In this document: one piece after another, positions 808 to 64,000 of the stretch | How positions within the stretch are numbered: the first letter of the stretch is position 1 | How the letters are laid out: every line of letters starts with the position of its first letter | DNA from: Neocallimastix lanati (nom. inval.) | Taxonomy: Eukaryota; Neocallimastigomycota; Neocallimastigomycetes; Neocallimastigales; Neocallimastigaceae | Direction: 5' to 3' | DNA: 64,000 bases | NCBI GenBank assembly: GCA_016946835.1 | Contig: JACVTC010000018.1 | Location: 272,501 to 336,500, forward strand | Program-made: the position numbers and the translations under genes | Notes under the pieces: generated by a model | The model's database searches: none | Seen by the model: the letters and a program-made list of their open reading frames with translations, nothing else | What the model was told of the DNA's origin: nothing

Positions 808-809
808 AT

Positions 810-1359: not shown

Positions 1360-1485
1360 TTCTTTTTTGCAAGAATAAATAAAAAAGAAATAAGTAAAAT
1401 AATTCATAAATTCATAAATTAAGATAAGCGAAAATATAAATTGTAAGGTTTCTTTTTAAAATTTATAAATAAAATAATAATAATA

Positions 1486-6215: not shown

Positions 6216-6227
6216 GGGCCGACGAAT

Positions 6228-7007
6228 TGATACAGATTGGAATTCTTAAGCATAAAATTATTAGAAAGCTTGAATAATATCTAACCTATTCAACAACAAA
6301 TTAATAAATTAAAATTTGAAATTAAAATCATAATAAAAAAATTTATTTTAATTAAATTCTAAAACTCGAAATTATACTTTAATTCTATTTTAATTTTTAA
6401 AATAATGAAATATTAATGTTAATTAATTTCTCTTTTTAATTAAAAGTAAATAGTTTGTAAACAATTTTCTCTTTTTTTTATTATTTTGAATTCTTTGTTT
6501 ATAATAATTCTTGTATTAATTGTTTATTTGTTTATTTTATTGTTTATTTTTATAAATATAATTATTCTTAATTATTTTATTATTAAAAATTGTAAATACT
6601 TTAAATTATTGTAAAAATATAAATACTTGTAAATATTTTATAAAATTAATTTCTCGTTGTTATTAGAAATGTAATAAAAAAAATAATAACCAAATATTAT
6701 AATAATAAATAATAATAAAAATTAATAAATAATAATAAAAATTAATAAATAATAATAAAAAAAATTAATAAATATAATAATAAAAATTAATAAATATAAT
6801 AATAAAAATTAATTCTAAACACAAAAGAAATGTATAATTTTGAAAAATTAATAACAATTCAGTGTTAAGCTAGAATAATAATAACTTAATTATTAATAAT
6901 AATAACATAAATTCATTTATATTAAATTTATATTAATTCAAACTTGATACATCTATTATCACTTTTGAAGTAATAACTTCAAATTAAGATAATAGAATCG
7001 TTTGTCA
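6228..7007 (+). repeat. 3' LTR of element A
   Basis: Repeat of 28-807. It begins 12 bp after the pol stop. The intervening GGGCCGACGAAT is the only purine-containing candidate for plus-strand priming and is not a typical polypurine tract. Confidence 0.93.
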
Positions 7008-15100: not shown

Positions 15101-17555
15101 GACAATAGCTTCTCAAGTCCCACTTTTCTGATTGTTTCTGCTACCGAATCCTCTTGCGTGATCATGGCTAGATGATCTTTTGTCTGGCTATCTTTTTGTG
15201 CACTACTTTCCGTAGGGTTTTTATTAATTTCACTCTCCTTTAGATTTTTAGACTTCTGTACCTTGAACCAATCTGCCCATTTGTCGTAATCCACTAAGTA
15301 ATCGTAGTAATCCATCGTATACTCAATTCCTCTATCACGGTAATATTGCCTCGTCAATTCATACACCGTGTCCTTCAACTTCTGGTTATCAATGACCTGA
15401 TTTATAATTTTGGTAATTCTCGCTGTAGGTTGAATCTCCTTTTGCACAGCTTCTTCTCTTTCTTCTGGGAGTTGAACCATGTAGATACTTTCACCTGCAC
15501 ACTCTTCTGGTGAGTCTACATCTGGTAGCCCTGGTTTTTCGCCATCTATTTTATATACCTTAGGCTGTTGATCATGGACGTCAATCTTTCTATAGATTAA
15601 GTGTCTATCCATGAATCTTGATCCCAGAATGATTGTTCTCGGCATAGCCACGGCTAGCCTGCATCTTGTATTAAAATCATACCATTTGACTTTACCAGTA
15701 CGATCTTCGACCAGCTTAATCTTAATCTTGAACTCTTCCGTAACCTGTGGTATCAGCACTTTACCAGCGGCAGTAGTGAACGTTAAGGGACGGTCTTCTG
15801 TCTTGAGTCCCATCTCTTTGGCTAACTGCGGGTGGATCATGTTGATCTGTGATCCAGTATCATACAGCACATTTAAATCTTGGAGCCCCTCTTTGGTACG
15901 AAGATTACTTATCTTGGCCTCTGGCACAAATTCATCGCGCTCAGAACCAGCTTGCATCAGAAGTGCTGTCTTGGGAATTGGATTATTACTGCTGGTACGT
16001 GAGTCCTTATAGTAGTTTTGTTTTTCACTTGGTCTCGTACTGAAATCTTTACCACTATTGTGGTTATATCCATCTTTCTTATTTTTATCGTAATTGTTTT
16101 GCTTAGTAGGCTCTTTCCTACTGAAATCTCTTTTATCGCCTAGGCGATTATCGCTGTTCCTCCTTCTTTTGGCTTCAATATCCTTGGAGGGTCTTCGCGG
16201 GTCCATCATTCCAAGTAGGGCCATGATGGCTATCTTCCTCTCGCTGTTGTATTCGTATCTTTCTAGGTAATCGTCTTTGTAATCCGCGGGGAATGTGTCG
16301 CATCTCCTTAGACAAGTCACGTAATCTTCTAAGGTTTGCTTTTCTGCAGGTAGATCATAAAAGGCTTCACGAACCGATGGTCTAACTTGTTGTACGAGTA
16401 GTAGTCTTTTGGTTTCATCCGTTAGCTGAAGTATTCTACTTAACCTATTGAATTCTGATAGGTATTCATAGGCTTTACCCCAATCGTGTCTAAGTTTAAG
16501 CATTGCTGTTTTAACTTCTTCCAACGTTCTTTCGCTTTTGAATTCCTTCAGCAATCTATCCATCAACCTTTGAGGTTGTGGGTCATCTCGTTGTTTGAAT
16601 ACTTTGTCCATTTGGTACCACTTCTTAGCAGTTCCTTGTAAGTGGTCCTCAATAAAGTACAACATAGCCGTGGGCTCGCTTTGGTAATACTTCTGGTGTC
16701 TACCAAAGTACCTTTTTAACCTGTCAATAAATGATTCTACATCCCCAGTTTCACCATTGAACATTGGGATGTCTCGTTCGTACTCCACAGGGTACGCGTC
16801 GGTCATAACCACATCTTCCATTGCACTTCTGGTCATTATAGGCGGCGTGAGGTGGTGATAACTACCGTATCTTGCTTCTTTAGTATCTATGTGTAGTGGG
16901 AAAGGTTTGCTCGTCGATGCCTGCTCCTTATTCTGAGCATCCAAAGCCAGCTTACCCAGTCGTTCGATCTCCTGTTGCTGTACCTGGTTAATGGCCATTA
17001 GCTTCTCGATTTTTTCTTCGAGCTCATTCAAGTGTACCTTATCCCTTTCTTGGTTCGCATCCAAGAATTCCTCAATCTTGAACAATTTTTGACCTTTATC
17101 CTCTAGGTCTTGTTGTATTTGTTTTCCTTTTATCTGGTTCGCATCCAGATAGGTCTCAATCTTTTTGATTTCAGCTTTAACAGCGGCCTCTTTATCTTTA
17201 CTTTCAGCAAGTTGCTGACTTAGATACGCTTGTACCTTTTGAAGCTCTAGCACACTAGCTTGGCTACTAGACTCCTCTTCTTCCACACGCCTCTCAACCT
17301 CTCCAAATCGTTGGTCCACAGCGGGGATAAAGTTGCTTAGTTCGGCTTCAATTTTAGCGAATCTCATTTCACTTTGGTTTTGCATCTGTTCTATCATCGC
17401 AGCCGTCTGTTGCTGAGTGCTTATTATCATGTTCCTAAAGTCCTCCATCTGCTTACTCAGCAAAGCAGCAAAGTCCATCGCTCCAGCATTAACATTTTTG
17501 CTTGAACTTTCTCCTTGGTTAGTCCCTGGCCTACTGGCTTCAGGTTTACTAGCCA
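12109..17555 (-). CDS. Gag-Pol polyprotein of element C (chromodomain Ty3/Gypsy), 5'-truncated, RT catalytic Asp changed
   Basis: One uninterrupted frame, no gag/pol shift; numbers follow the apparent ATG at 17634 (1,841 residues). Order: Gag with a coiled-coil, Gln/Glu-rich N-terminus and a capsid-like domain but no CCHC knuckle, protease LYDTGSQ, RT, RNase H, integrase (H-H-CRTC-C and D-D-E), then a C-terminal chromodomain-like segment (about 1778-1829, KIIHILESR ... WVNADVIDDNP) expected to read chromatin marks at insertion. RT motif C YLDD (1041-1042) is intact. Motif A reads FSKFNLKSAY with Asn977 where the catalytic Asp belongs; the decayed copy at 31981 keeps FDL, so this RT should be dead. 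The first 26 or so apparent residues are antisense to a family-D RNase H, so the true start is lost at the 17555 junction. Confidence 0.88.
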
Positions 17556-17570
17556 AAATGAATGCACCAA
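17540..17570. other. Head-to-head junction between element C and a family-D pol
   Basis: Left of about 17555 the minus strand reads element C Gag. From about 17560 the plus strand reads family-D pol (NAPILKFP, then RNase H). Both elements lack their 5' halves and LTRs, with no LTR or target duplication between them. Either a rearrangement joined two elements, or it is an assembly join. Confidence 0.75.
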
Positions 17571-19191
17571 TTTTAAAATTTCCATGTTTCGAGAAAGAAT
17601 TTATTATTCGAACGGATGCATCGTATGATGGCATTGGTGGTGTCCTATTACAAAAAGATGATGAAACAAAAAAAGAGCATCCTGTACACTATATAAGTAG
17701 AGCATTAACTAAACATGAAAGAAATTACGGAATTACAGATCTAGAAGGAACTGCTCTATTTTATTGTTTAACAAAATTTAAACCTTATATTATGGAAAAT
17801 CCCATTAAAACAATAATCTATACTGACCATAAACCCTTAGTAGGATTATTCAACAAGAAATACCAACAAGTGCTCGACAAACCAGATGGTGTTTAGCTGT
17901 AAATCTTTTAGGTGTAGAAATTCGATATGAACCTGGCAAAAAGAATGTTGTAGCTGATGCTCTTTCTCGAATGAAAAGTATAAATGATAAGAAAATGTTG
18001 GCAACAAAACTCTCTTCAAAAGTTGATGAATCCTTATTATCTAAAGTTGTAAAAGAATTTATAGAAGAAAAATTTACAACAATTGATGGAATTGAATACT
18101 TTGTAGATGGAAATACTTATAGGAAATTAATCACTGATACTAATGAAAAGGTCAAACTTATTCTTGAAGCTCATGGCATAGGACATGAAGGATATAATAA
18201 AACTTACCAACGATTACGAAAAAGTTACTATTGGAACAACATGGTAAATGATATTAAAAGAATTATTTCAAAATGCGAACAATGTCAATTAAATAGACCC
18301 AAAGCATACCCAGAACCAACAGAAGATATTCCTACAGAAGTTGAAGGACCTTTCACACATTTAGGTTTAGATATAATTGGACCTCTAGAGAAAACATCAA
18401 ACAATAATAAATATATTTTGGTAATCGTGGACTATTTTACTAAATGGGTAGAGGCCGAGCCAACTGAAAATGTAACTTCAAAAGATGTAATAAAATTTTT
18501 AATTAATGTATTCTCTCGTCATTGTGTGCCTCAAACAATTACAACTGATAATGGTGTTCAATTCAATTCGGATATGACAAAAATGTTCCTAGATCTTTAT
18601 GATGTGTATGTGAGGTTCAGTACCACTTATCATCCAGAAACGAACGGTCTTACAGAAAACCGAAATAAAGAAATTGGAAAACTACTTAGACTTTTAGGAA
18701 ATAAACAAAAAGAATGGGACGAAGTCTTACCTTCCGCTTTATGGACTCTTCGTACAACCAAAAATTCGGTTACTAATCACTCTAGCTTTGAACTTGTTTA
18801 TGGACGAGAAGACCAACAACCCTTTGACATAGCTGCCAGATCAGCTAAAAGTGTAAACAAATCTTCGGATGAAATACTATTGGAAACATTTGTCAATCAC
18901 TACTTATGGACTATGGAAGCTGCGGCCAATATCAAAAATGCAATTAAATACTGGGCTACTCGTAGAGAACAAAAAAATAGTATGAATCAGGCCAAAAGAA
19001 TAAAACCTGGTGATTTAGTCTTAGTAAAGAATTTTACTCGAACCAAGTTAGAACCATATTTTGTTGGACCACTCCAAGTAATTAAGAAACAATTCAACAC
19101 AGTAACATTGGCCAATCCTAAGTCGGGTATACAAATGAAGCGCAATGTTCACTTGAAGAACATAATCAAGTTTAACTCAGCTTCTGTATAG
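17557..19191 (+). pseudogene. 5'-truncated family-D pol (RNase H and integrase), one frameshift
   Basis: Homologous to element D Pol from NAPILKFP onward. It holds the RNase H TDAS and TDHKPL motifs, a frame break near 17865 (reading then resumes at ARQTRW in another frame and runs to the stop), the integrase zinc finger (GHEGYNK ... CEQCQLN), and the D/D/E core (GLDIIG, TDNG, LTENRN). The reading frame from 17971 to 19191 is clean. Gag, protease and RT are missing because of the 17555 junction. The C-terminal region has no chromodomain, as in D. Confidence 0.88.
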
Positions 19192-23895: not shown

Positions 23896-24704
23896 ATGAA
23901 AATATTGGAATTAGAAGATCTTTTACCTAGACTAGATGAATCTGGCAAAGATGTTGACACTTGGTCGGAAGAATTCGTTAGACTTATGAAGTTAGCAGAT
24001 ATTAACACTCTATCTTCAATACATACTTGGTCTATGGAGTGTGTAGAAGGGAAGCTACGAGGTGTCCTTCAAGACTTGGTTACTATTAACGAAGATGGTG
24101 AAGAAGTTTATCCTAATGTTAAACAAATAAAAAGGCTCTGGAAGATGCATTAGAAGTGACTCCACAGTTGAAGCGCAAAAGATTGCAAAAATTAAAGATA
24201 AAAAAGAACGAGACTATTAAGAACTTCAACTGGAGGTACAAGAAGTTATACAACAATCTGCCAAGGTTATACCAAGAATTCATTATTGTAGATGATTACG
24301 CTGAATCTATTTCGTATAGACCATACGCGAGGGCACAAGTGATTACCAACCAATGCTTTGACTTTGAGGAAGCCTTTGAGGAAGCTAAATTGGCCGAGAG
24401 AGCTGAGACGAACGCTAAAAATTTCTCTAGTGATAAAGATTTCACCACCATTTATCCTGCTAACAAAGGAAGCCACCAACATCCATTTAGGTTATTTAGA
24501 AGTAATTACTCGTCAAGTAGGAACAATCAATCGAACAGAACAGAAAAAACTGAAAGCAAGAAAGTTAATAAAAACAAAGATTTTAGATGCTACAAATGCT
24601 ATCAATTAGGACATGTAATGAAGTCATGCCCTTACTCTTATAAGGAACTTGCTGAGATGGAGGAATCCGGAAAGTTAGAAGAAAATAGAAGATCTTTAAA
24701 CTAA
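23896..24704 (+). pseudogene. Gag of element E, one frameshift
   Basis: The frame opens at the ATG at 23896. It is broken by a one-base change in the A5 run near 24127-24131, and continues in the next frame (KALEDALEV...) to 24704. The capsid-like region is followed by a basic Asn/Ser-rich stretch and a CCHC knuckle (CYKCYQLGHVMKSC). The end is TCT TTA AAC TAA, giving the slippery heptamer T TTA AAC at 24695-24701 in phase. It is unrelated to element A Gag by eye outside the knuckle, and its central part is closer to the D and F Gag proteins (NETIKNFNWRYKKLY). Confidence 0.85.
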
Positions 24705-24727
24705 TGGAAGGAAGAAGGAAAACTTCC
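24695..24727 (+). promoter_or_regulatory. Frameshift signal of element E
   Basis: Slippery heptamer TTTAAAC (24695-24701) in the gag phase directly before the stop; pol opens in the -1 frame as in A and D. A 5-bp stem GGAAG/CTTCC (24706-24710 and 24723-24727) starts 4 nt downstream. I found no clear second stem. Confidence 0.6.
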
Positions 24728-27700
24728 TCTAAACAAACCGAGGATCTAGTTGCTACCTCCATTAGAAGAAATAGATCCGATAAATCTCCAAATAAACCAT
24801 ATACAAAAATTACTTCATTAAAAGACAATCCAGTCCGTATCTCATTACTAAGAAACCACGAACAAGTCCCAGAACCATCCCCGTCGTTTCAGAATCCTGT
24901 ACCAAATACTGAGGCATTAAATGAAATTGATGTTTCAGTTATAGCTCAGCCATAAATAAGAAATAGTAAAATAAAAGCCAAAAAACAAAAACAGCAAGAA
25001 ATAATGGAGCATTTACATGAATTTAGTGATAACATTAAGAAATCTAAGACTAGCAATGCAAAATTACCAAGTACTTTATTAGACGAAAAACTAAACAAAA
25101 CACCGAAACCTTTTAACACTGAGAAGAGAGGTGCTAAGCACATAGAGTTAGCCCAAGGAATTAAAACTTACGACATCAAAGAGGATCTCAACCACAAAGT
25201 TGCTGATATCACTTTTGGACAATTACTGGACATTTGTCCGAAATTAAGGGCACAGTTGAATAAGGCTCTCAGACTAAAAAACATTGAATTTAAGGAAGAA
25301 GGTATGGAAAAAATTATGTTGTCAACAATTTCCAAAGATGATATAGCTACTACAGAGTGCCTAATCAATGGCGTAAAGGGCTTTGAATATTTAAATCATG
25401 TGCAAGTATCAATATCGTAACTCGTAGTTTTCTAAAAAATTTAAAGGGAATAAGACCTTTTGAATTTACCACAAATAATATCATCCAAGTAACTTCTAAG
25501 ACTAGAATGTCTTCGGAATTGTACGTTTTAACGGTAACCTTTGGTAATCTTACGATTTCAGATGTATTCAGGGTAATCGATGATAATCAAGGATTGTTTG
25601 ATGTATTAGTAGGTTATAAAACACTTAAAGAAAACAAGTTATTTATTAATCCTTATGACAACTACCTTTGTAAAATGAATGATGATGAAACTTGAACGAG
25701 AATAGCACCTTTATCCGCAGACGAAGAAGTTCAAACTAGTGAAGACGAAGATCAAACTAGTGGGGAAGAAGTTCAAACTGATTTTAAGGAAGATATTCAT
25801 GATAAAAATAATATAGGAAACTAAATGAAATCACAATAAAAGATTCATATGCGCTACCATTCATAGATGAATTAATATCTTCTGTTAAAGGAGCCAAAAT
25901 ATTTTCAGCACTTGATCTATATTCTGGATACCACCAAATACCAATGAAACCTGAAGATATAGAAAAAACTTCGTTCACTACCAAGTTCGGAAATTATAAC
26001 TTCAAACTAATGCCATTTGGATTAACAAATGCCCCTGCAACATTCCAACGTGAAATGAATAGGATTCTGTTACCCTTAATTGGTAATTGTCTCTTTGTAT
26101 ATATCAATGATATTGTAGTTTATTCTAAATCACCAGAAGAGCATCTTAAACATTTACAACAAGTATTTGAAATATTTTCAAAATATAATTTATCTCTAAA
26201 CCTTCAGAAATGCAAATTCTTCCAAGAACAAGTTGAGGTACTAGGTCACGTACTATCTTCTACTGGTTTGAAAACTATGCCTTCAAAAGTACAAACTATT
26301 GCGTTATGGGATACTCCAAAAGACGTAAATGATTTAAGATCTTTCTTAGGATTAGCTAGTTATTATAGAAAATTCATCCAAAACTTCTCTATGATAGCGG
26401 ATCCACTCTTTCAATTACTTAAGAAAAATCAAGAATATATCTTGTCAAATGAATGTAATGAAGCTTTTGAAGAAATAAGACAGTACCTACTTTCTGATCC
26501 AATATTAAACTATCCTAATTTCGAGAAAGAAATCCTTATTAGAACAGACGCTTGCAGATGGAGGAAGACAAATTGGAACACCCAATTTGTTGTATAAGTA
26601 GAACATTAACATCAGCTGAGAAAAACTATTCAATTACTGATCTAGAAGCTCTCGCAATAATCTATAGTATAAAGAAACTAAGACATTTCCTTATAAGTAG
26701 TAAATTTCCAATTAAAATTATAACTGATCATAAACCTCTTTTAGGTTTCTTTAGTAAAAATATCCCTACAAGTAGTAGACACTTCAGATGGATAGAAGAA
26801 TTCAATAAATATAAAATTAACTTAATTTATGAAAAAGGAAAGAAGAATGTATTTGCAGATGCACTATCAAGATTACCATCCAAAGATACTGAAAATATTC
26901 ATCAATGTATTAATGCTATATTCACTGATTTTAATCCAAAAGATTTAGATCTCCCTGAAGGAATAATTAAATACTTTACGAAGAATTATCAAGTAGTTGA
27001 TAACACACTCTATTATAAAAAAGATGACTTATACCTGAAGTTAATTTATAAAGATGAAGATAAGAAACATATAACAGAAAGAGCACATTCCGTAGGTCAC
27101 GAAGGTGCAGACAAAACAATAAATAGAATAATGAAGTCTTATTACTGGCCTGGAATATGGAATGATGTAAGAATGTGGGTTAAATCCTGCAGAAAATACC
27201 AAGTCTGCCGACCAAAGCCACTACTAAAAATACGGAAGATCATATAACACCAACTGAACAACCATTCACAAGAGTAGGACTAGACATAATAGGTCCTCTA
27301 CCAACAACTAAGCAAGGTAATCCTTATATTATAACATTGGTTGACTACTTCACCCATTGGGTAGAAGCCAAAGCAGTACCTAATCAAACTTCCAAAGAAG
27401 TAATAAAATTCCTAACTGAAGTTATTGTAAGGCATGGACCCCAGAAATAATTGTAACGGATAACGGAGGCTCGTTTACAGCTGATGCAACAAAAATGATG
27501 ATTGACCTATATGGATCATGGGTGCATTTCATTTCTCCTCATCATCCAGAATCCAACGGAATGATAGAAAACAGAAACAGAGAAGTTGAAAAAATATTAA
27601 GATTACTAGTAGAAAATGAAACAGAATGGGACGAGTATCTTCCTTCAGCGTTATGGGCTCTTAGAACAACAAAGAACTCTAAAACAAAATTTAGTAGCTT

Positions 27701-28133
27701 CGAATTATTATATGGAAGAAGAGATACTTGGCCTCTTGAAATAATGTTTCCAGACATTTATAAAGACCCAAATGAATCTGAAGAAGAGTACATATTTAGA
27801 AGATTTTTAAGACACCAAAACTGGGTAAAGCAAGCAACTGAATATTCTGATCATGCCAACCAATATTGGGAACACCGTATCGGATTAGCCAAAGCTCTAA
27901 GAAAAACATATAAATCCGGAGATTATGTTATAATTAGATTAATAGAAAGAAGTAAGCTAAACCCATATTTTTACGGACCTTACAAAGTAGTCAAAAAGCA
28001 AAAGTTTAATACTTTAGTACTAGAAGATCCTGCTACTGAAAAACTTTTAGATAGAAATGTTCATATTAAAAATGTTTATCCATATGTATTACCTGAACAA
28101 GCTTTAACTTCAAGGGACGAAGTTAATACTTAA
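24701..28133 (+). pseudogene. Pol of element E, several stops, deletions and a changed RT active site
   Basis: The linker and protease region (24704-25695) is broken by stops near 24955 and 25420. In the third frame the protease site reads SCASINIVTRSF, so the residue after Ser is Cys, as in family D. A deletion then removes the protease-RT linker and the RT N-terminus (resuming near 25820). RT motif A is intact (LDLYSGY), but motif C reads YIND (Asn codon 26106-26108) where element A has YLDD. The frame breaks again near 26560-26590 in RNase H and at about 27240 and 27450 in integrase; CHKC has become CRKY. The last 212 residues are clean and very similar to element A. Confidence 0.9.
28104..28126 (+). 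promoter_or_regulatory. Hairpin in the last pol codons of element E
   Basis: TTAACTTC/GAAGTTAA around AAGGGAC, an 8-bp stem with the same loop as element A (6187-6207). A purine tract AAGAAGGGGG follows at 28133-28142. Confidence 0.45.
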
Positions 28134-50753: not shown

Positions 50754-50763
50754 CAGTTAGAAG

Positions 50764-50845
50764 CGTCAGCTGCAGGGTTTGAACCTGCGCGGGCAGAGCC
50801 CACCAGATTTCAAGTCTGACTCCTTAACCACTCGGACAAACTGAC
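50764..50845 (-). tRNA. tRNA-Ser (TGA)
   Basis: 82 nt, no intron. Acceptor GTCAGTT pairs with AGCTGAC; discriminator G as usual for Ser. The D arm contains TCCGAGTGGTTAAGGAG. The anticodon stem-loop is CAGACTTGAAATCTG (anticodon TGA), followed by a long class II variable arm (GTGGGCTCTGCCCGC) and T arm GGTTCGAACCC. No T4 stands between it and tRNA-Cys, so the two are probably one Pol III transcript. The element D LTR starts 15 bp upstream of its 5' end. Confidence 0.96.
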
Positions 50846-50860
50846 CACTTCTGCTAATTT

Positions 50861-51352
50861 TGATAAGAATGTACTAAATAATGCATTCTTAATTAAATCT
50901 ACGATTTATTTCTAATACATTATGTGTACATTATTATTTTTGTACTTTAATAAATTTTTAAATTCAAAGATTAAAAATTAGATCAAAAATTATATTAAAC
51001 TTTATAATTTTTATATTAAATCTTATATTAATAGTAATATTTTTATATATTTAAAACTTATATTAACAATATTAATAATAAATCTTATTTTTTTATTTTT
51101 ATATTAATAATGAAAATTTGTATTAATAATATTTTTATATATTGATAATTAAAAATTTATATATTATATTTTAACTTTTATTATAAAATTTTATATCGAA
51201 ATGTTTTATTTTATATTGAAAAATATTTTATTTTATTAAAAACCTTTATATTAGAATAGTATTTTTATTTTTATTTGAATATTTTAACAGATTGTAATAA
51301 AAATTTTAGCCAATTAAATAAATTCTTATTAGTAATATTTTAGATAGATTAG

Positions 51353-51409
<57 letters not shown>

Positions 51410-51712
51410 TATTAATATTATAAATGTATTTTATTTATATTGTTATAATTAAATTTTATATAATTGATTATAAAAATCAATTTAAATTTAATAGTTTTTA
51501 TATATAAAAAGAAAAATAATAATAAAATGTAATTTAGTGGCAAGAACAACTTTTATGCCTTGAAAAAAAAGTATAAATAGTTGTAAATTTTGCTACTAAT
51601 TTTTAAATATCATCAAATAAAATCAAATAAATTTATAAATAAAAATAATAAATAAAAAAATAAAATTTGTGTTTCTTACTTTATTTTTATTTAATTCTCT
51701 AAAACCTTAACA
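50861..51712 (+). repeat. 5' LTR of element D
   Basis: TGATAAGAATG...AAAACCTTAACA. A53 tract at 51353-51405. Near the right end it has GTGGCAAGAACAACTTTTAT and a TATAAATAGT promoter-like box. Confidence 0.93.
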
Positions 51713-51718
51713 TTTATA

Positions 51719-52746: not shown

Positions 52747-53016
52747 AGTGGTCGATAAAGATTTCGAGCTTGAAAAATATTCTATTAAGTTGTCGATAAA
52801 GATTTCGAACTTAAAATTATTCTATTAAGTTGTCGATAAAGATTTCGAACTTAAAATTATTCTATTGAGTTGTCGATAAAGATTTCGAACTTAAAAATTA
52901 TTCTATCGAGTTGTCGATAAAGATTTCGAACTTAAAAATTATTCTTAATAAAGTAGTCGAAAAGAACCTCGTGCTTTATAATTTCTACTAAGTTGTCGAT
53001 AAAGATTTCGAGCTTA
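52747..53016 (+). repeat. About seven 39-40 bp repeats, each able to form a hairpin, in the element D leader
   Basis: The core AAGTTGTCGATAAAGATTTC followed by GAACTT is repeated. In each unit AAGTT-TCGA pairs with TTCGAACTT around TAAAGAT, with one G bulged. The sixth unit is diverged but keeps AAAG/CTTT and CGA/TCG pairing. The array ends about 175 bp before the gag ATG. Confidence 0.8.
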
Positions 53017-53190
53017 TATCTACTAAAGAAAGCAAATAAAATTATTATTTTCAAAAGTTACTAAAATATATTGTTTTAAAAATTGATTCGATATTAAATT
53101 ACCTATTAAATTATATTTTTAAAGTTGTATTTCCAAATTTATTCTTATTTAATCACCTCATTAATATACAACAAGAAATATTTAAACAAA

Positions 53191-54096
53191 ATGTCCAAGG
53201 AAACAACTTTGAGCTTTAAAGAATTGAAAAAAGAATTAAGAGATATTGTGAAACTTAGCAAGGACAATTTAGATATTAAGTCCTGGGCTACTGAATTAAA
53301 ACTTTGGATCAAGATACAAGGTATTACAGATCCAGAAACAATATTTAATGCTTGTTTACTTACCAGCTCTGGTGAAGTACAACGCGTTATTGAAGATTTG
53401 GGAGAAGATAGTGATGATGAAAGTGATGATTCATCAGATGAAGAAGAAGATGATGAAGAAGAAAATGTTGATGATGATAAATTTCCTTCTCTTGAAAAAA
53501 TTATTTCAAGTCTTGAAAATTTTTACGGTATTAAAGAAGACCAAAATTTACTTCTTAAAGAACTTCGTGCAATGCGAATTAAAAGAAACGAAAAGATTAA
53601 AGACTTTAATGTAAGATATAGAACTTTGTACACTAAACTTGATAAAAAGAGAAGAAAGCGCATTGGTGTACTAGATTATATTGATTCTATTCAAAATAAT
53701 TATGAAGCCTGGAAGAAATTATCCCTTAAAGATGATATAAGTATGGAGAAAGCTTTCAAAATTGCCGAGAAAGTAGATAGACTTTCTGTAAGGAACAATA
53801 ATATTAATACCTATAATGTTAATAATTCCCAGCATAATCAAAATAATCAAAACAGTACTACTTCAAGACTTTATCCTAAAAGAAGAAACGAAACTTTCCA
53901 AACAAGTCAAACAAATAATAAACTGAAACCTCAAGATATTATAGAAGAATCAACCCAGAAAATGAGAAATTTATCTGTTAAAACTTGTTTCTTCTGTAAG
54001 GAAGAAGGTCATTACTCATACTATTGCCCTCAATTAAATAAGATTATGGAAAAAAATAAAAAAGAAATATATTCCAAAAAGTCTTTAAACTTCTAA
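53191..54096 (+). CDS. Gag of element D (nucleocapsid zinc knuckle)
   Basis: 301 residues from the ATG at 53191, which has A at -3. The upstream in-frame codons to 53125 are A/T leader. A capsid-like helical region is interrupted by a strongly acidic tract (about residues 72-107). It is followed by KIKDFNVRYRTLY and an Asn/Gln-rich segment. The CCHC knuckle CFFCKEEGHYSYYC lies about 30 residues from the end and would bind the element RNA. The frame ends TCT TTA AAC TTC TAA, so the slippery heptamer lies two codons before the stop. A 5'-truncated relative is at 44330. Confidence 0.9.
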   Translation: MSKETTLSFKELKKELRDIVKLSKDNLDIKSWATELKLWIKIQGITDPETIFNACLLTSSGEVQRVIEDLGEDSDDESDDSSDEEEDDEEENVDDDKFPSLEKIISSLENFYGIKEDQNLLLKELRAMRIKRNEKIKDFNVRYRTLYTKLDKKRRKRIGVLDYIDSIQNNYEAWKKLSLKDDISMEKAFKIAEKVDRLSVRNNNINTYNVNNSQHNQNNQNSTTSRLYPKRRNETFQTSQTNNKLKPQDIIEESTQKMRNLSVKTCFFCKEEGHYSYYCPQLNKIMEKNKKEIYSKKSLNF

Positions 54097-54136
54097 ATGG
54101 GAGCAGAAGCACTCCCAATGACAAAACAATAGCTTC
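54084..54136 (+). promoter_or_regulatory. Programmed -1 frameshift signal of element D: slippery site plus H-type pseudoknot
   Basis: T TTA AAC (54084-54090) in gag phase. After 7 nt, stem 1 TGGGAG/CTCCCA (54098-54103 and 54112-54117). Loop bases GAAGC (54106-54110) pair with GCTTC (54132-54136) as stem 2. Stem 1 is the same as in element A, while stem 2 differs on both sides (GCAAT/ATTGC there). The pol frame is open from the heptamer onward. Confidence 0.87.
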
Positions 54137-57100
54137 ATTAAATAATTTACAAAATAATACTTTTACCAAGAATACCCCAATTGATAATAATTCCTTTAAT
54201 AAAGAATCTGAAGAATCTGATTTTAGTGACACAACTGAAAGTGAGGATAATATCATTATAAATGCTATAAAAAGAAAAATGAATGATAATAACAGCGAAA
54301 AGGAAGAAAATAATTCCAAGAAAGTACATAAAAGTTTAAAAGATAATCCACGTCCTTTCGCAACTCCTGCTTTAAGAAAGAAGAAAGAAAATGAGCTACA
54401 TAATAAACCAAATAAAGTTTATAAAAATCAAATACTTCCTTCAATTTTAACTCAACCAAATATTAACAAAGAAAAACAAAAAGAAAAGGAATTAAGAAAT
54501 ATAACAAGAGTAAGAGAAAGTAAAGAAGAAAACAACAATTATTCATCAAAAGGAAAGAAAAAAGTTGAATCTGAAGATATACTTGTAATCGATAATGAAA
54601 TAGAAGATATAGAAATGAATAAAGATAATCAACAAAATAAAACTAATACTTTGGAAAAATTAATTTCAACAAAAACTAAAGAAACTAATAATGAAAATAC
54701 TCAGTTAGTAAAAAGGAATATCAAAATGATGAATAATAAAGAACCTTACAATATTATGGATGATTTAAATAATCTTAAATCCAGTATTACGATAGGTCAA
54801 CTCTTGAATGCATGTCCGAAAATTCGTTCACAATTAACTCAAGGTTTAAAGTTAGAAAAATCTAAAATAATTGGAACTGTAGACAATGTAATAGCACGAA
54901 CTTTATTAGTGAATAACTATGATCATAGCTACATAAGTAAAAGTAATGAAGTAGCCGAAGAAGACTTAGCAATGGTTGATGCAAGTGTTGACGGAGTACT
55001 AGGAAAACTTTTAATTGATTCTTGTAGTAACCTAAGCATCGTTACTAAGCAGTATTTTGATAAATTACCTGGTGAATATGAAACAGTTGGAAAAAGTCGT
55101 GGAAGAATCCAACTAGCAACACAAGATGAAGAATACTCGGAAGGAATTATTGTTCGATTACCAGTAAAAATTAATAATTATGAATTTAATGCGGACTTTA
55201 GAATTATTGAGAAAGAAGACTCTTTTTATGATATGTTAATAAACTTTAAAACTCAAATCGATCATTGTTTATTTATTCATCCGACCTTAAACAGTTTATG
55301 TAAACTTTTGTCAGAAAGTGAATACGAAGAAATAGCTAAAATAAATAATCAATATTATGATGAAGAAAGTAAAATTTGCACTATTAGAAAAGTTAAAGAA
55401 ACGAATAATGAAAAGGAAATTATAAAGGAATTAACTCCAATGGAATTTATTGAGAGTGATGAATTTTTAAGTACCTTAAATAAAGATTATAAAGAACAAA
55501 TTATTAAAATTCTCAAAGAAATGATTGACATAGTTGCCACTTCAACAGAAGAACTAACTCCTTCTAAACTTTCACCACATAAGATCCGTTTGAAAGCAAA
55601 TGCAAAGCCAGTAAAATTAAGAAGTTATAGGTTAACTAAATTAAAATCAGATATCTTAAAAGAAGAACTTACAAAGCTTATTAAGAAAGGATTGATAGAA
55701 CCATCCTGTTCAGAATGGTCATCTCCAGTAGTACTCATTCTAAAACACAATGGAAAGTGGCGCTTGTGTATTGACTACCGAAAAGTCAATGATATGACAG
55801 AAAAAGATTCTTATTCAGTTCCATATATAGATGAAATTTTTGATAGTCTCGGAGGATCTAAAATATTTACAACTCTTGATTTATTTTCTGGTTTTCACCA
55901 AATCTTAATGGATGAAGAAAGCGTTGAAGTAACCACTTTCACTACTAAGTTTGGAAATTATCAATTTAAGGTTATGCCTTTTGGACTTACTGGAGCTCCC
56001 TCAACCTTCCAAAGAGAAATGAATAAAATTTTATTCCCTTTTATTGGTGAATTTGTTTATGTATTTATTGATGATGTTTTGATCTATTCAAAAAGTATCG
56101 AAGAACATTTAATTCATATTAAACAAGTATTAGAAGTATTTAAAGAAAACAAGTTAAAAATTAATATTGAAAAGTGCCATTTTCTTCAAACTGAAGTTGA
56201 TGTATTAGGTCACAAACTTACTACTAAAGGATTAAGTCCCATGGAAAGTAAGATAACAGCTATTAAGAAGTGGGAAGCCCCTTCATCACTTCATGAATTA
56301 AGATCATTTTTAGGAGCAGTGGGATATTATCGTGATTTTATTCCTAAATATGCTCAAATTACCTCACCTTTATGTAAATTATTGAAAAAGAATACCAAAT
56401 ATGAATGGAATAAAGAACAACAAGAAAGCTTTGAACTCCTAAAAGAAAAATTAATCAATGCACCTATTCTAAAATTTCCGTCATTTGACAAACCTTTTAT
56501 CATTAGAACTGATGCTTCGTATAATGGAATTGGTGGAGTTCTTTTACAAAAAGAAGAAGAAACCGGTAAGGAGCATCCAATACACTTTATAAGTAGAAGT
56601 TTAAAGAAAGCTGAAAAGAATTATGGTATTACCGATTTAGAAGGAACCGCTTTGTTTTACTGTATGACTAAATTTAAATCTTATATTGAAGGAAATCCAT
56701 TACCTACAACTATTTACACAGATCATAAACCATTAGTTGGTTTATTTAAGAATAAAGAACCTTTGAATGCAAGGCAAACAAGATGGTGTCTAACCGCTAG
56801 TATGCTCGGAATTAATATAAAATATGAATCAGGCAAAAAGAATGTGTTAGCTGATGCTCTTTCAAGAATGAAAAGTAAGGAAGAGAGAAAGATATTATTA
56901 ACAAAAATTACTAATGGAAATAATGAAGAATTATTATCTAAAGTTATAAAGGAATTTATTAATGAAAAGTTTACTGTTATTGATGGTGAAGATTATTTTA
57001 TCGACAATGGAAATTATAGAAAATTAATAACGGACGAAAATGAAAGGTTTAAATTAATTTTAGAAGCTCATAATATTGGCCACGAAGGATATTACAAAAC

Positions 57101-58094
57101 ATATCAAAGACTTAAGAAAAACTTTTATTGGAATCATATGATTAAAGATATCAAAAGAATTGTTAGTAATTGTGAAAAATGCCAGTTAAATCGTCCTCAA
57201 CCATATCCAGAACCAACCGAAATCCATCCAACTAAAGTGGAGGGTCCCTTTGTGCATTTAGGATTAGATATTATAGGACCGTTACCAAAAACAAGAAATA
57301 ATAATCAATATATTATAGTAACTGTTGATTACTTTACCAAATGGGTTGAAGCCGAACCCACTGAAAACATAACTTCCTCTGATATAATTAAATTTTTAAT
57401 AAACGTTTTTGCAAGACATGGTGTGCCTCAAGTTATTACTACAGATAATGGAGTCCAATTCACTTCTGATATGACTAAAATCTTTCTTGATCTTTATGAT
57501 GTTTATGTAAAATTCATAGCTACCTATCACCCTGAATCCAATGGTCTCACTGAAAACCGAAATAAAGAAATTGGAAAATTACTTCGTTTATTAGGAAGGA
57601 AAAATCAAGATTGGGATGAAGTTTTACCTTCTGCTTTATGGGCACTTCGAACTACCAAAAACACAGCTACCGGACATTCTAGTTTTGAATTAGTATATGG
57701 AAGAGAAGACCAACAGCCTTATGATATAGCCATAAGAACAATTGAAAATGCAGGTAAATCGTATGATGAAATTTTAATGGAAAAATTTGTTCGTCATTAT
57801 CAATGGACTAGAGAAGCATGCGAAAATGTGAAGAATGCTAACAAGTATTGGGCAACAAGACGAGAAGAACAAATAAGTATGAAAAAAGGAAAAGAATTAA
57901 AAGCTGGTGATCTTGTTCTTGTTAGAAACTTTAGCCGCACTAAGCTAGAACCATATTACAATGGACCATTTAAAATTTTAAAAATTCAATTCAACACGGC
58001 AACCTTAATCGATCAGAAAACTGGGAAACAACTCGATAGGAATGTTCATTTTAAAAATTTAGTAAAGTTTAACTCCGCTTACAGAGAAGCTTGA
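54090..58094 (+). CDS. Pol of element D (protease, RT, RNase H, integrase), made by -1 frameshift
   Basis: A 1,334-codon frame; numbers count from the codon at 54090. A long charged linker (to about 220) is followed by an aspartic protease whose active site reads D310-S-C instead of D-S/T-G. RT has motif A (TLDLFSGF) and motif C FIDD with D661-D662. RNase H has TDAS, Glu in TDLEGTA, and TDHKPL. Integrase has the zinc finger (GHEGYYK ... CEKCQLN) and a catalytic D (GLDIIG), D (TDNG), E (LTENRN) set with 35 residues between the last two. No chromodomain. The first ATG of the frame (54279) is well inside, so translation as Gag-Pol is likely. The frame is free of stops, and apart from the odd protease motif it looks functional. 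Confidence 0.92.
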   Translation, partial: LLNGSRSTPNDKTIASLNNLQNNTFTKNTPIDNNSFNKESEESDFSDTTESEDNIIINAIKRKMNDNNSEKEENNSKKVHKSLKDNPRPFATPALRKKKENELHNKPNKVYKNQILPSILTQPNINKEKQKEKELRNITRVRESKEENNNYSSKGKKKVESEDILVIDNEIEDIEMNKDNQQNKTNTLEKLISTKTKETNNENTQLVKRNIKMMNNKEPYNIMDDLNNLKSSITIGQLLNACPKIRSQLTQGLKLEKSKIIGTVDNVIARTLLVNNYDHSYISKSNEVAEEDLAMVDASVDGVLGKLLIDSCSNLSIVTKQYFDKLPGEYETVGKSRGRIQLATQDEEYSEGIIVRLPVKINNYEFNADFRIIEKEDSFYDMLINFKTQIDHCLFIHPTLNSLCKLLSESEYEEIAKINNQYYDEESKICTIRKVKETNNEKEIIKELTPMEFIESDEFLSTLNKDYKEQIIKILKEMIDIVATSTEELTPSKLSPHKIRLKANAKPVKLRSYRLTKLKSDILKEELTKLIKKGLIEPSCSEWSSPVVLILKHNGKWRLCIDYRKVNDMTEKDSYSVPYIDEIFDSLGGSKIFTTLDLFSGFHQILMDEESVEVTTFTTKFGNYQFKVMPFGLTGAPSTFQREMNKILFPFIGEFVYVFIDDVLIYSKSIEEHLIHIKQVLEVFKENKLKINIEKCHFLQTEVDVLGHKLTTKGLSPMESKITAIKKWEAPSSLHELRSFLGAVGYYRDFIPKYAQITSPLCKLLKKNTKYEWNKEQQESFELLKEKLINAPILKFPSFDKPFIIRTDASYNGIGGVLLQKEEETGKEHPIHFISRSLKKAEKNYGITDLEGTALFYCMTKFKSYIEGNPLPTTIYTDHKPLVGLFKNKEPLNARQTRWCLTASMLGINIKYESGKKNVLADALSRMKSKEERKILLTKITNGNNEELLSKVIKEFINEKFTVIDGEDYFIDNGNYRKLITDENERFKLILEAHNIGHEGYYKTYQRLKKNFYWNHMIKDIKRIVSNCEKCQLNRPQPYPEPTEIHPTKVEGPFVHLGLDIIGPLPKTRNNNQYIIVTVDYFTKWVEAEPTENITSSDIIKFLINVFARHGVPQVITTDNGVQFTSDMTKIFLDLYDVYVKFIATYHPESNGLTENRNKEIGKLLRLLGRKNQDWDEVLPSALWALRTTKNTATGHSSFELVYGREDQQPYDIAIRTIENAGKSYDEILMEKFVRHYQWTREACENVKNANKYWATRREEQISMKKGKELKAGDLVLVRNFSRTKLEPYYNGPFKILKIQFNTATLIDQKTGKQLDRNVHFKNLVKFNSAYREA

Positions 58095-58112
58095 GTCTTC
58101 GTCGGGGCATCT

Positions 58113-58604
58113 TGATAAGAATGTACTAAATAATGCATTCTTAATTAAATCTACGATTTATTTCTAATACATTATGTGTACATTATTATTTTTGTACTTT
58201 AATAAATTTTTAAATTCAAAGATTAAAAATTAGATCAAAAATTATATTAAACTTTATAATTTTTATATTAAATCTTATATTAATAGTAATATTTTTATAT
58301 ATTTAAAACTTATATTAACAATATTAATAATAAATCTTATTTTTTTATTTTTATATTAATAATGAAAATTTGTATTAATAATATTTTTATATATTGATAA
58401 TTAAAAATTTATATATTATATTTTAACTTTTATTATAAAATTTTATATCGAAATGTTTTATTTTATATTGAAAAATATTTTATTTTATTAAAAACCTTTA
58501 TATTAGAATAGTATTTTTATTTTTATTTGAATATTTTAACAGATTGTAATAAAAATTTTAGCCAATTAAATAAATTCTTATTAGTAATATTTTAGATAGA
58601 TTAG

Positions 58605-58661
<57 letters not shown>

Positions 58662-58965
58662 TATTAATATTATAAATGTATTTTATTTATATTGTTATAA
58701 TTAAATTTTATATAATTGATTATAAAAATCAATTTAAATTTAATAGTTTTTATATATAAAAAGAAAAATAATAATAAAATGTAATTTAGTGGCAAGAACA
58801 ACTTTTATGCCTTGAAAAAAAAGTATAAATAGTTGTAAATTTTGCTACTAATTTTTAAATATCATCAAATAAAATCAAATAAATTTATAAATAAAAATAA
58901 TAAATAAATAAATAAAATTTGTGTTTCCTTACTTTATTTTTATTTAATTCTCTAAAACCTTAACA
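58113..58965 (+). repeat. 3' LTR of element D
   Basis: Copy of 50861-51712 with AATAAATAAATAAA for AATAAATAAAAAAA and one extra C near 58927. A53 tract at 58605-58657. It is preceded by CGTCGGGGCATCT, the likely plus-strand priming region. Confidence 0.93.
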
Positions 58966-58971
58966 ATTTTT

Positions 58972-59960: not shown

Positions 59961-62900
59961 TTATGGTGATGGTTCCTTTAATCCTATGTCTCTTTCAGTA
60001 TAAGGCTCCAACTGCGAGATATGAAATACCGGGTGTAAATGAAGATTTTCTGGTAATTCAAGCCGGTAGTTCATTCTTTCCCTCACTTCTATGACCTTAA
60101 AGGGTCCAAGATACTGGTTAGAAAGCTTTTTTGCAAATTCATTGGAGAAGTAATACCTTTTCAACCAAACCATGTTGTTAACATGGAAAGTAGGACCAGA
60201 AGCTTTCCTAGAGTCACCAAACTTTTTGAAATCTTCTTTAGCTTTGATAAGGTGCTTTTTAAGGGCATCAAAATGGGCAGACCAATCCCTAGTAAGTACA
60301 GAGGCATTATCTTTTAAAAGAACAGGAGGAGAGTCAATATTGCATACTGGATTAAAACCATAATTTGCACAGAAAGGCGACATGTTTATAGATTTGTGAA
60401 ATGAGTTGTTATAAGCCATTTCACAAAGAGGTAGATAAAAACACCATTCATTTTGGGTAGTAGAACAGTGGCATCGTAAATATTGTTCGATTACGGAATT
60501 AGCCCTTTCGACTTGACCATTTGTTTGTTGGTGATGAGCAGTAGCGAGTCTTGGCTTAGTATTTAGAGCTGAGCAGAGTGAGGTCCAAAATTCAGAAGAG
60601 AACTGGGAGCCATGATCAGAGACAATGATTTTAGGGAATCCATGATACCGAAAAACGTTGTAAAGGAGCATCTTGGCGGTCAGGTCAGCGGAAGGGACGT
60701 CGGAGCAAGGAACTAAATGGATCATCTTTGTTAAGTGATCCGAAACCACCATAATACATGTGCAATCTTGTGAACTAGGTAACGAAACTATAAAATCAAC
60801 CCCAATAATTTCCCATGGTTTATTGGGAACAGGCAACGGTTGAATTTTTCCGTAGGGTTTATGTCTACGAATTTTACACCTAGCACAAGTTGAACAAGAA
60901 AGTACATAATTATGAATATCTTTCTTCATATTAGGCCACCAGTAGTATCTCTTGATTTTATCAAGAGTTTTGTCAATACCTTGGTGTCCGTTGGTGGGTG
61001 AGTCATGAAAAGATTTCAAAATTCTTGCTCTTAAAGTGGATGGGACGATGATTCTGTTTTGGAAATGTAAGACCCCTTCATTTAAAGAAAATAAAGAACT
61101 TTTAACTGTGTTTGACTTAGTTTTAATCTTTTCTAAAATAGATTTGCAATATGTGTCAGCCGTTTGGGCATCAATCAAACTACTAATATTATCAGTGTTT
61201 GCACAACATAAGGCATTATCATCCAATAAAGGACGGTCTTTGTTGTGGAGGGAAACCACGGAATTATAATCCGGACGTCTCGACGACGAATCTGGTTCAC
61301 TACTCCTTGATCCACAAAATTTGTCAGTCGGTTGGGTATCAATCAAGCTACTGATAATAGTGTTTGCACAACAAAAGGCATTATCATCCAATAAAGGACG
61401 GTCTTTGTTGTGGAGGGAAACCACGGATTTATAATCCGGACGTCTCGACAACGAATCTGGTTTACCACACCTTGATCCAGGTCTGAACGAAATCCTAAAG
61501 TCAAACTTAGAAAGAAAGAGGCTCCATCTTATCTGGCGTTGGTTTAAATGTTGAGGCTTTTTAAAATATAATAAATTCCTGTGATCGGTAATGATTTGAA
61601 CAGGAAACTTAGCCCCTTCAAGGTGGTGACGCCAGGTTTCAAAAGCGGTGATAATAGCGAGTAGTTCCTTGTCATATATTGTATAATTTAATTCAGAAGA
61701 TGACAAAGACCTAGAATGAAAAGCGACAGGGTGAAGTTCGTTATCCTTGTCACTGATTTGAGAAAGAATGCAACCCACAGCAAAATCACTGGCATCAGTT
61801 TCAACAGTGAATTCCTTATCTGGATCGGGGTAGATAAGGATTTCGTCTGTGGTAAAAGCAAGTTTTAATTTTTTGAAGGCATTCTCAGCATCATCATTCC
61901 ATTTGAACTCGTTATTCTTCTTGAGGAGTATTCTTAAGGGTTCCATAATTATGGCGAAATTCTTTATGAATTTCCTATAGTAGTTACAGAGTCCGAGGAA
62001 ACTTTGAAGTTCATTCATGTTTTTTGGAGTAGGCCATTCAAGAATTGATTTTACTTTGTTTTTATCCATAGAAAGGCCATTTATTGATACAACAAACCCT
62101 AAAAAAGTAGTTTCAGGAACGTGAAATTCACATTTTTCTAGTTTTACATAGAGACCATTTTGGACTAACAAGGAAAGGACATGATGAACATGTTTAATAT
62201 GTTCAGTAAGGTTTTTCGAATATATTATAATGTCATCTAAGTAGACAAAGAGAAACAAGCCAATATCATCAGAAAAAATGTCTTGGATGAAGCGTTGAAA
62301 AACCGAAGGAGCATTACGTAAACCAAAAGGCATTACACGGTATTCAAAATGACCAAAAGGAGTACGAAAAGCAGTAAGGTATTCATGGCCTTTCTTGACA
62401 CAAACTAAGTTATAGGCAGATCTTAAGTCAAGCCGAGAGAAAATAATAGCACCTTTAAATGATTCTATCAAATCAGATATCCTAGGAATTGGATAGCTAT
62501 TTCTGATAGTAATTGAATTAGGTTTTCGGTAGTCAACGCAGAGTCTGAGAGAGCAGTCATGTTTTTTAACAAATAGCACTGGAGCACCAGTAGGAGATTT
62601 TTTAATTATTTCTTCATTTTTGTCAGAATCCTTCATTTTACTATCTTGAATTAAAACAGCACAGATATCCATATCGCTTAATTCGTCTTCAGATATGGAA
62701 TCAGGAATTATAGAATCAAGAGAAGTTTCTCCCTTATGTTTAGATTCAGTTCTGGGTAAGAGAGAAGCAGTAATATCTGATGAATGGAAAACAAACTTAT
62801 TACCCTTAGCGGAAGGACAATGACTAAAACAGTGAGATTCCAAAAAATAGATTTTATTATTCTTATAGTCAATGTAAGGAGAATGAAGGCTTAACCAATC

Positions 62901-63962
62901 TCTTCCAAGGATTGCAGATACGTCTTGAAGTTGTAAATTGGCTATAAAGAATTCAAATGTTTCCATATGGTCCATGAAAGTAAGCTTAAGACGTTTTGTA
63001 ACTTGTTTTATAGCCATATTCTTTTCATTAGGAAGTTTTACATTGATCGTATTTGAGAGGTTTGAATAAGGAATTTTGTTTGCTGTTACGAAGCTTTTGC
63101 AGAGATAACTTCTAGCAGAGCCCGAGTCAATGAGGATTCTGGTTTTAATCTTTTTGTTATTAACGGTTAACAAGAAAGTTGTAGTCATTTTATTATTATG
63201 ACTTGGGGTGTAATTTGCTGATAAAATACTTCCATTGTCTCGTCCCTTATGGTGCTTATTGCGTTTAAATTTGTTTTCGGTCATGTTAGTTTCGTTTCTT
63301 TTTCGTTTGAAAGATTTACTACTCTTTGGCTTGTAGTCATTGGTCTTTACTTTTTGCTTAAGTAAGCATTTTCTATCAATATTGATAATAGAATTTGTTG
63401 CCTCAAATAAACTTTTAGGTTTGTCTAATTTATTGAACTCTGTTTTAACATCCTCAAGAAGACCTCTTTTGATTAGGTCAATGAATACATCGTCCGGCCA
63501 TCCAATACGTCCAGCTAACCTTCGAAATTCAATAGTATATAATGCGGCTCTTCCTAAATGAAGTTGTTTTAAGTTTAGAAGTTGTTCAATAAGAACATCC
63601 TTCTGTTCTTTAGTATCCCCAAAATTGCTTATCAAAATATCTTTAAAGGTGTCATAGCTTAACGAATTTAAAGTCCCATCAGCCTTCAATGAAAGTCCCC
63701 ATTTTTTTGGAGGTCCATGTAACATGCTGATAACATAAGAAATTTTTAAGTCGTCCGTGGAAAAAGAGTTGGGATGTTTTTTAAAAAACAATTCACTCTG
63801 TTCCAGGAGCTCATTAACGTTAAGTTTGTTGTTATCAGCTAAGTCCTTGGATAACACTCCGTTGGCGGAAAAGAAGGTAGGAATAAATTCTGTTAAAGCT
63901 GTTATAAGCTTTGAGGATTCAACTTCACTTGGAATTTGGGCGTTATTACTATTGGATTCCAT
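59961..63962 (-). CDS. Gag-Pol polyprotein of element B, with an RT N-terminal gap and an internal 55-residue duplication
   Basis: 1,333 residues in one frame. Gag has a capsid domain (about 55-200) and a basic tail without a CCHC knuckle. The protease has D279-S-G. RT has motif A D512 (RLDLRSAYN) and YLDD with D576. RNase H has TDAS and TDHRNL; integrase has the zinc finger (GHQGIDK ... CSTCARC) and a D-D-E core. It ends HISQLEPYTERD, without a chromodomain. Two oddities: the stretch between protease and RT jumps from an acidic linker straight to SPTGAPVLFVKK, so roughly 80 residues of the usual RT start are missing; and a 165-bp unit with SRRPDY...LLDDNA is repeated in tandem (about residues 828-937) between RNase H and integrase. 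DYRKPNS replaces the usual DYRKLNS. The frame is open, but RT activity is doubtful. Confidence 0.9.
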   Translation of the reverse strand: MESNSNNAQIPSEVESSKLITALTEFIPTFFSANGVLSKDLADNNKLNVNELLEQSELFFKKHPNSFSTDDLKISYVISMLHGPPKKWGLSLKADGTLNSLSYDTFKDILISNFGDTKEQKDVLIEQLLNLKQLHLGRAALYTIEFRRLAGRIGWPDDVFIDLIKRGLLEDVKTEFNKLDKPKSLFEATNSIINIDRKCLLKQKVKTNDYKPKSSKSFKRKRNETNMTENKFKRNKHHKGRDNGSILSANYTPSHNNKMTTTFLLTVNNKKIKTRILIDSGSARSYLCKSFVTANKIPYSNLSNTINVKLPNEKNMAIKQVTKRLKLTFMDHMETFEFFIANLQLQDVSAILGRDWLSLHSPYIDYKNNKIYFLESHCFSHCPSAKGNKFVFHSSDITASLLPRTESKHKGETSLDSIIPDSISEDELSDMDICAVLIQDSKMKDSDKNEEIIKKSPTGAPVLFVKKHDCSLRLCVDYRKPNSITIRNSYPIPRISDLIESFKGAIIFSRLDLRSAYNLVCVKKGHEYLTAFRTPFGHFEYRVMPFGLRNAPSVFQRFIQDIFSDDIGLFLFVYLDDIIIYSKNLTEHIKHVHHVLSLLVQNGLYVKLEKCEFHVPETTFLGFVVSINGLSMDKNKVKSILEWPTPKNMNELQSFLGLCNYYRKFIKNFAIIMEPLRILLKKNNEFKWNDDAENAFKKLKLAFTTDEILIYPDPDKEFTVETDASDFAVGCILSQISDKDNELHPVAFHSRSLSSSELNYTIYDKELLAIITAFETWRHHLEGAKFPVQIITDHRNLLYFKKPQHLNQRQIRWSLFLSKFDFRISFRPGSRCGKPDSLSRRPDYKSVVSLHNKDRPLLDDNAFCCANTIISSLIDTQPTDKFCGSRSSEPDSSSRRPDYNSVVSLHNKDRPLLDDNALCCANTDNISSLIDAQTADTYCKSILEKIKTKSNTVKSSLFSLNEGVLHFQNRIIVPSTLRARILKSFHDSPTNGHQGIDKTLDKIKRYYWWPNMKKDIHNYVLSCSTCARCKIRRHKPYGKIQPLPVPNKPWEIIGVDFIVSLPSSQDCTCIMVVSDHLTKMIHLVPCSDVPSADLTAKMLLYNVFRYHGFPKIIVSDHGSQFSSEFWTSLCSALNTKPRLATAHHQQTNGQVERANSVIEQYLRCHCSTTQNEWCFYLPLCEMAYNNSFHKSINMSPFCANYGFNPVCNIDSPPVLLKDNASVLTRDWSAHFDALKKHLIKAKEDFKKFGDSRKASGPTFHVNNMVWLKRYYFSNEFAKKLSNQYLGPFKVIEVRERMNYRLELPENLHLHPVFHISQLEPYTERDIGLKEPSP
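61150..61480 (-). repeat. 165-bp in-frame tandem duplication inside element B
   Basis: GGACGGTCTTTGTTGTGGAG and its flanks occur twice at a 165-bp offset (for example GCACAACA(T/A)AAGGCA at 61201 and 61366). It adds 55 residues at the RNase H-integrase connection. Confidence 0.88.
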
Positions 63963-64000
63963 TTTTACCTAAATTATAAATTATATTAACTATGAAATAT

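Follow-up and report, generated by a model that had tools for sequence, protein, structure and literature searches.

At positions 54084-54136 of the 64,000-nucleotide stretch of DNA analysed here (the window), the gag and pol frames of a Ty3/Gypsy-type LTR retrotransposon, element D, overlap at what is very probably a −1 programmed frameshift signal for Gag-Pol. The frames, the slippery heptamer, the geometry of the site, the gag stop beside the heptamer and covariation of both stems of the downstream fold are directly observed. Signals of this kind are already known; this one is notable for the size of its natural covariation set, for combining a frozen stem 1 with an exchanged stem 2, and for a clade with AAGG loops. 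More than 1,300 junctions in one genome (1105 + 137 + at least 87), which are related copies and not independent events, share one slip site and a nearly identical stem 1 and so form a natural experiment: stem 2 takes several forms and is almost absent from one clade, so that its contribution could be tested in native sequences.

Element D and its gag-pol junction

Element D has two LTRs, 99.5% identical over 860 alignment columns, and the domain order reverse transcriptase (RT)-RNase H-integrase, which identifies it as a Ty3/Gypsy-type (Metaviridae) LTR retrotransposon. Its features and those of the junction, all on the forward strand, are:

50857-51715, +, 5′ LTR of element D, as aligned (TG at 50861)
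53110-54096, +, gag-like ORF of element D, stop to stop (stop TAA at 54094-54096)
54060-58094, +, pol ORF of element D (RT, RNase H, integrase), in the −1 frame relative to gag
54084-54090, +, slippery heptamer T TTA AAC, in the gag frame
54091-54098, +, spacer of 8 nt, which includes the gag stop
54099-54103, +, 5′ arm of stem 1, GGGAG
54106-54110, +, 5′ arm of stem 2, GAAGC, within the stem 1 loop
54112-54116, +, 3′ arm of stem 1, CTCCC
54117-54131, +, A-rich crossing loop of 15 nt
54132-54136, +, 3′ arm of stem 2, GCTTC
58109-58968, +, 3′ LTR of element D, from the LTR alignment

The gag-like ORF, which the pol ORF overlaps, gave no match in a Pfam search, and its translation ends in a CCHC-type zinc knuckle recognized by eye. 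In pol, the Pfam order is RVT_1, RNase H, H2C2 and rve, both in element D and in a second element of the window, element A. Pfam found no protease in either; the likely site by eye is DTG in A and DSC in D, the latter at about residue 320 of pol, where A has its DTG. The leader of element D contains, at 52747-53019, repeated units of about 40 nt (GTCGATAAAGATTTCGA...).

A preliminary description of this DNA had reported TTTAAAC, stem 1 GGGAG/CTCCC and stem 2 GAAGC/GCTTC in element D, and all three are found at 54084-54136. It had given the spacer as 7 nt; with stem 1 as described the spacer is 8 nt, in element A as well as in D, and 7 nt is obtained for D only when T54098-A54117 is added to stem 1 as its sixth pair. 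The usual spacer of −1 frameshift signals is about 5-9 nt, a range that includes the 8 nt of element D. A search of Rfam with 54000-54250 matched nothing up to E = 1.

From these features we infer the slippage, its efficiency and the slip codons. Most ribosomes would read gag through TTA-AAC and terminate at the TAA, the second codon past AAC. An H-type pseudoknot (5-bp stem 1, 5-bp stem 2 and A-rich crossing loop) would stand 8 nt 3′ of the heptamer, and some of the ribosomes that meet it would slip one base back on T TTA AAC into the pol frame, so that Gag-Pol would be made at a low ratio to Gag.

The features of elements A and C with which the junction of D is compared are:

2445-2451, +, slippery heptamer T TTA AAT of element A
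2460-2494, +, pseudoknot of element A: GGGAG 2460-2464 with CTCCC 2473-2477, and GCAAT 2468-2472 with ATTGC 2490-2494
24695-24739, +, signal of element C: TTTAAAC 24695-24701, and GGAAG 24710-24714 with CTTCC 24723-24727

Element A spans 28-7007, with LTRs identical across 780 bp, gag at 1447-2454 and pol at 2430-6215. As the preliminary description had it, A shares stem 1 GGGAG/CTCCC with D and has another stem 2, GCAAT/ATTGC. That both arms of stem 2 changed together holds insofar as the arms differ and are paired in both elements, and fails insofar as A and D do not share the columns: in D, loop positions 3-7 pair with positions +16 to +20 after stem 1, whereas in A loop positions 4-8 pair with +13 to +17. 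Because the two helices lie in different registers, the contrast between A and D alone is not pair-by-pair compensation; it is a replaced or re-registered stem 2. The gag proteins, described as unalike, are indeed divergent yet related, with 26% identity over 99 aa. The pol proteins are 41% identical, and within the first 307 residues of pol one strong match of 57 aa is the only one between D and A.

Slip site and stem 1 across the genome

The genome (199 Mb, 762 contigs) is very AT-rich. The pattern TTTAAAY-(6-10)-GGGAG-(7-9)-CTCCC has 536 + 569 = 1105 matches in it, compared with 0 for the reversed pattern used as control. Without the heptamer, GGGAG-(6-10)-CTCCC is found at 1173 places, each of them on both strands, and backwards at 17; with 1105 of these matches carrying the heptamer, most such hairpins in the genome stand behind one.

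Reading frames were surveyed at 73 sites, fetched or in the window, with at least 900 bases upstream and at least 1500 downstream. Downstream, the −1 frame exceeds the other frames at all 73 sites, with a length of only 3-16 codons at five of them (L018, L037, L039, L061 and L068). Upstream, the heptamer frame is the longest at 68 of 73, and the remaining five (L048, L051, L056, L068 and L070) look decayed. At 71 of the 73 sites the heptamer frame meets its stop at the first or second codon past AAY, and at the other two (L024 and L054) the frame continues for 12 codons. The position of this stop beside the heptamer (54084-54096 in element D), close to the A site, might itself aid slippage.

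Stem 1 varies at pair 3, which is G-C in the 1105 matches, G-U in 137 and A-U in 87 among the 100 matches listed of 151 to a looser pattern, for which the backward control gave 9 + 15 = 24. An A-C mismatch at this pair has 3 matches in the genome, of which one carries an inserted base. Read in the pol frame, the change from GGG to GGA is silent, and the partner change from CCC to TCC replaces Pro by Ser. Selection on the protein therefore does not explain the coupling, which points to the RNA. A genome search for double changes at pair 4 gave 0 matches, and at pair 5 it gave 2, neither of them a paired double change at a junction: L073 (GGGAT/TTCCC) has a T-T mismatch, albeit with a 6-bp stem 2, and the other (GGGAA/TTCCC) is paired and lies in no open frame, hence at no junction.

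Stem 2 across families and the AAGG clade

For stem 2, 107 sites were reduced to 48 representatives (<80% identity) and then to 46 by leaving out L071 and L072, judged from their sequence alone to be non-element junctions. Loops of the AAGG/AAGA type occur in 20 of the 46. Among the other 26, at least five contiguous pairs between loop and downstream sequence are found in 24; two crossing helices are present in D, in A and in 24 of these 26. With partners permuted 1000 times among the 26 families, the number averaged 7.9 and did not exceed 15, and no permutation reached the observed mean score. Across all 46 representatives, 25 have at least 5 bp, against a permuted mean of 6.0 and maximum of 14. 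Among the 30 places that come first in contig order, 24 do not have the AAGG type of loop, and 21 of these have at least 5 bp and 3 have 4 bp. The preliminary description had proposed comparing many copies from the same genome, and in that comparison stem 2 pairs above chance (24 of 26 against a permuted maximum of 15).

Several types of stem 2 recur: GAAGC/GCTTC in D and its relatives (the D loop type, NNGAAGCN, has 712 matches in the genome), GCAAT/ATTGC in A and its relatives, TCAAT/ATTGA, AGTG/CACT (4 bp), TGTACT/AGTACA and GAACGTT/AACGTTC. Some of these helices are weak alone (−1.4 kcal/mol for UCAAU/AUUGA).

Column-wise comparison is possible within the clade of element A (17 rows), where 98.2% of stem 2 cells are paired compared with a shuffled mean of 91.6, and the covariation score is 0.224 compared with 0.099, both values reached by 0 of 500 shuffles, which ignore relatedness. 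With the partners slid, pairing falls to 29-65%. Two of five measures were no better than in the shuffles of this clade, namely both-side changes (294/500) and further pair types (209/500). Pair 24-53 is G-C in 10 rows, U-A in 6 and U-G in 1; this U-G and the three unpaired cells all belong to L063, in which the arm is misaligned by one. The change from GCAAT/ATTGC to TCAAT/ATTGA is thus a column-wise pair compensation, and it may go back to one single event at pair 24-53.

The RT tree has 26 rows, 3 of 29 having been dropped: L038 and L051, which have long branches, and element C, for the discordant RT placement described below. This tree requires a minimum of 5 changes of stem 1 type and 4 of stem 2 type, several branches being weak. 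Restoring the dropped rows raises the changes required from 5 to 7 for all groups and from 5 to 6 for stem 1. Element C (24123-28133) carries an AAGG-type signal, with loop AAGGAAAA, a conserved CC at 24738-24739 and no ordinary stem 2, yet its RT groups with the GCAAT clade, unlike that of its motif twin L066; the element is possibly mosaic or nested.

Loops of the form AAGGnnnA make up one group of the RT tree (10 rows, support 80/74). Stem 2 pairing in this clade does not exceed chance: 1 of 20 representatives has at least 5 bp, against a permuted mean of 0.67, and two crossing helices are missing, element C included. A long-range stem 2 was sought in the 104 nt downstream and rejected, the longest pairing averaging 4.3 compared with 4.14 in permutations, of which 33 of 200 were as high. 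A full pseudoknot is therefore not needed in every member. What the clade keeps is GG at loop positions 3-4 and CC at +11/+12 after stem 1, in 18 of 20 representatives; in a scan of loop dinucleotides against positions +7 to +21, no other complementary dinucleotide pair reached 70% of representatives. Of 37 distinct AAGG sites, 36 retain CC and 35 retain GG. In the open frames that follow these sites, 88 of the 560 threonine codons are ACC and 50 of the 266 arginine codons are AGG, and in L068, where Ala replaces the usual Thr, CC is still kept. The conserved GG/CC may represent a two-pair contact, an interaction between the A-rich loop and a stem, or another RNA role. The divergent copy L070, on the minus strand, reverses the arrangement of the AAGG clade: its stem 1 is GGAGG/CTTCC, its loop contains CC, and GG lies downstream.

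The earlier claim that the RNA fold is selected gains support from stem 2 pairing above permutation, from the double change in the A clade and from the genome-wide covariation of stem 1. The fold is not universal, given that the 20 AAGG/AAGA representatives of 46 have no stem 2 beyond chance. These representatives, which keep heptamer, spacer, stem 1 and frames, are what one would expect if the stimulator were stem 1 as a simple hairpin, with stem 2 incidental or only tuning efficiency; the 137 G-U copies of stem 1 also belong, for all but 3 of the matches listed, to the AAGG clade. We consider a bare hairpin unlikely, since selection for a hairpin would not give the pairing above permuted partners and the covariation of stem 2 seen in other clades, and even the AAGG clade holds its GG/CC pair in 18 of 20 representatives.

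Two further explanations were weighed. The conserved letters could encode a junction peptide (Gly-Ser/Arg ... Thr/Ser-Pro/Ser) and have no role as RNA, and the pol frame indeed reads FK...G(S/R)..., with peptides alike across the families translated. Yet pair 3 of stem 1 changes as a pair, silently on one side and from Pro to Ser on the other, with just 3 A-C mismatches; the change from GCAAT/ATTGC to TCAAT/ATTGA alters amino acids on both sides in the alignment; and the AAGG clade keeps CC at 36 of 37 sites despite the low share of ACC among threonine codons and the Ala of L068. This makes a peptide explanation very improbable. A packaging or dimerization (kissing-loop) element that lies at the junction by chance is slightly more improbable still: some loops are partly self-complementary (AACGTT, GTAC and TGCA), but the D loop CAGAAGCA and the TCAAT loops are not when inspected by eye, and the position a few bases past an in-frame slip heptamer is common to 1105 matches.

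For a −1 frameshift signal, as preferred here, the clades taken together suggest a tentative, rather less than evenly probable, extension: a modular device in which slip site and stem 1 are near-frozen and stem 2 is exchanged (GAAGC, GCAAT/TCAAT, AGTG, TGTAC and AACGTT), while a sister clade is cut down to a fixed GG/CC contact and would still shift. If so, the GG/CC contact would be a minimal tertiary-contact stimulator.

Known systems and genomic setting

Retroviral and coronaviral frameshift signals combine an X XXY YYZ heptamer, a short spacer and an H-type pseudoknot, and some retroviruses have a stop codon right after the heptamer. The junction of element D has the same kind of heptamer, spacer and fold. 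It differs from those pseudoknots in its short 5 + 5 bp stems, with stem 1 almost frozen and stem 2 swapped between clades. Luteovirus-type mini pseudoknots have a very short stem 2 (about 3 bp) and an A-rich crossing loop, features that are comparable with the AAGG clade, which shows only 2 pairs.

According to a review, a 2003 survey placed pol in the −1 frame for 28 of 51 animal LTR elements, with less skew in fungi; the review also names U_UUA_AAC among the most shifty heptamers with mammalian ribosomes (PMC5009743). As in the −1 elements of that survey, pol is here in the −1 frame relative to gag, with a classical tandem-slip heptamer at the junction; unlike the signals covered there, the 3′ structure is backed by covariation across many families in one genome, and the host is probably an anaerobic gut fungus (PMC5009743). 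Ty3 of budding yeast has the same RT-RNase H-integrase order and, according to the same review, shifts frame by +1 with the help of a different type of 3′ stimulator (PMC5009743); Ty3-type +1 frameshifting does not fit element D, the pol of which is in the −1 frame of gag. Tca2 of Candida albicans is likewise a fungal retrotransposon with a potential pseudoknot 3′ of the end of gag, but its gag and pol are split by a bypassed stop codon, and the start of the abstract describes no −1 change (PMC2194720). A search by title of the open-access literature found no report of such a frameshift signal from gut fungi.

Within the window, GC content ranges from 10.5% to 41% in 2-kb windows. Elements B (12109-17688, minus strand, one ORF of 1859 aa from protease to integrase) and E (59961-63968, minus strand, one ORF of 1335 aa with an RT match) are single long ORFs, so that no frame change is needed across that length. 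Dockerin-like CBM_10 domains are a mark of anaerobic gut fungus cellulosomes; in this genome PF02013 (CBM_10) is abundant, with 150 scored matches among 1440 first-look candidates and none in the 14 control genomes, which makes an anaerobic gut fungus the probable host.

Yeast Ty3 inserts at Pol III starts, beside tRNA genes, and tRNA-gene neighbours are also seen beside D-family copies here. Only 15 nt separate the start of the element D LTR (TG at 50861) from the 5′ end of a minus-strand tRNA-Ser gene (50763-50845). We examined 19 other D-family copies (L109-L127), 11 of which have a recognizable LTR start. A B-box-like word lies 64-66 nt from that start in 7 of the 11 (L112, L115-L119 and L127); L110 has such a word solely at 11 nt, L114 and L120 have none, and in L123 a tRNA-Met call adjoins the LTR start. 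As a control for the word, TCGAAC occurs in 16 of 1962 windows of 130 nt. ARAGORN called tRNAs at 5 of the 19 copies. Bases 1-12 of the window match, by eye, the 5′ end of a tRNA-Thr that adjoins L117, one of the D-family copies, so that the start of element A, too, apparently lies about 15 nt from a tRNA gene.
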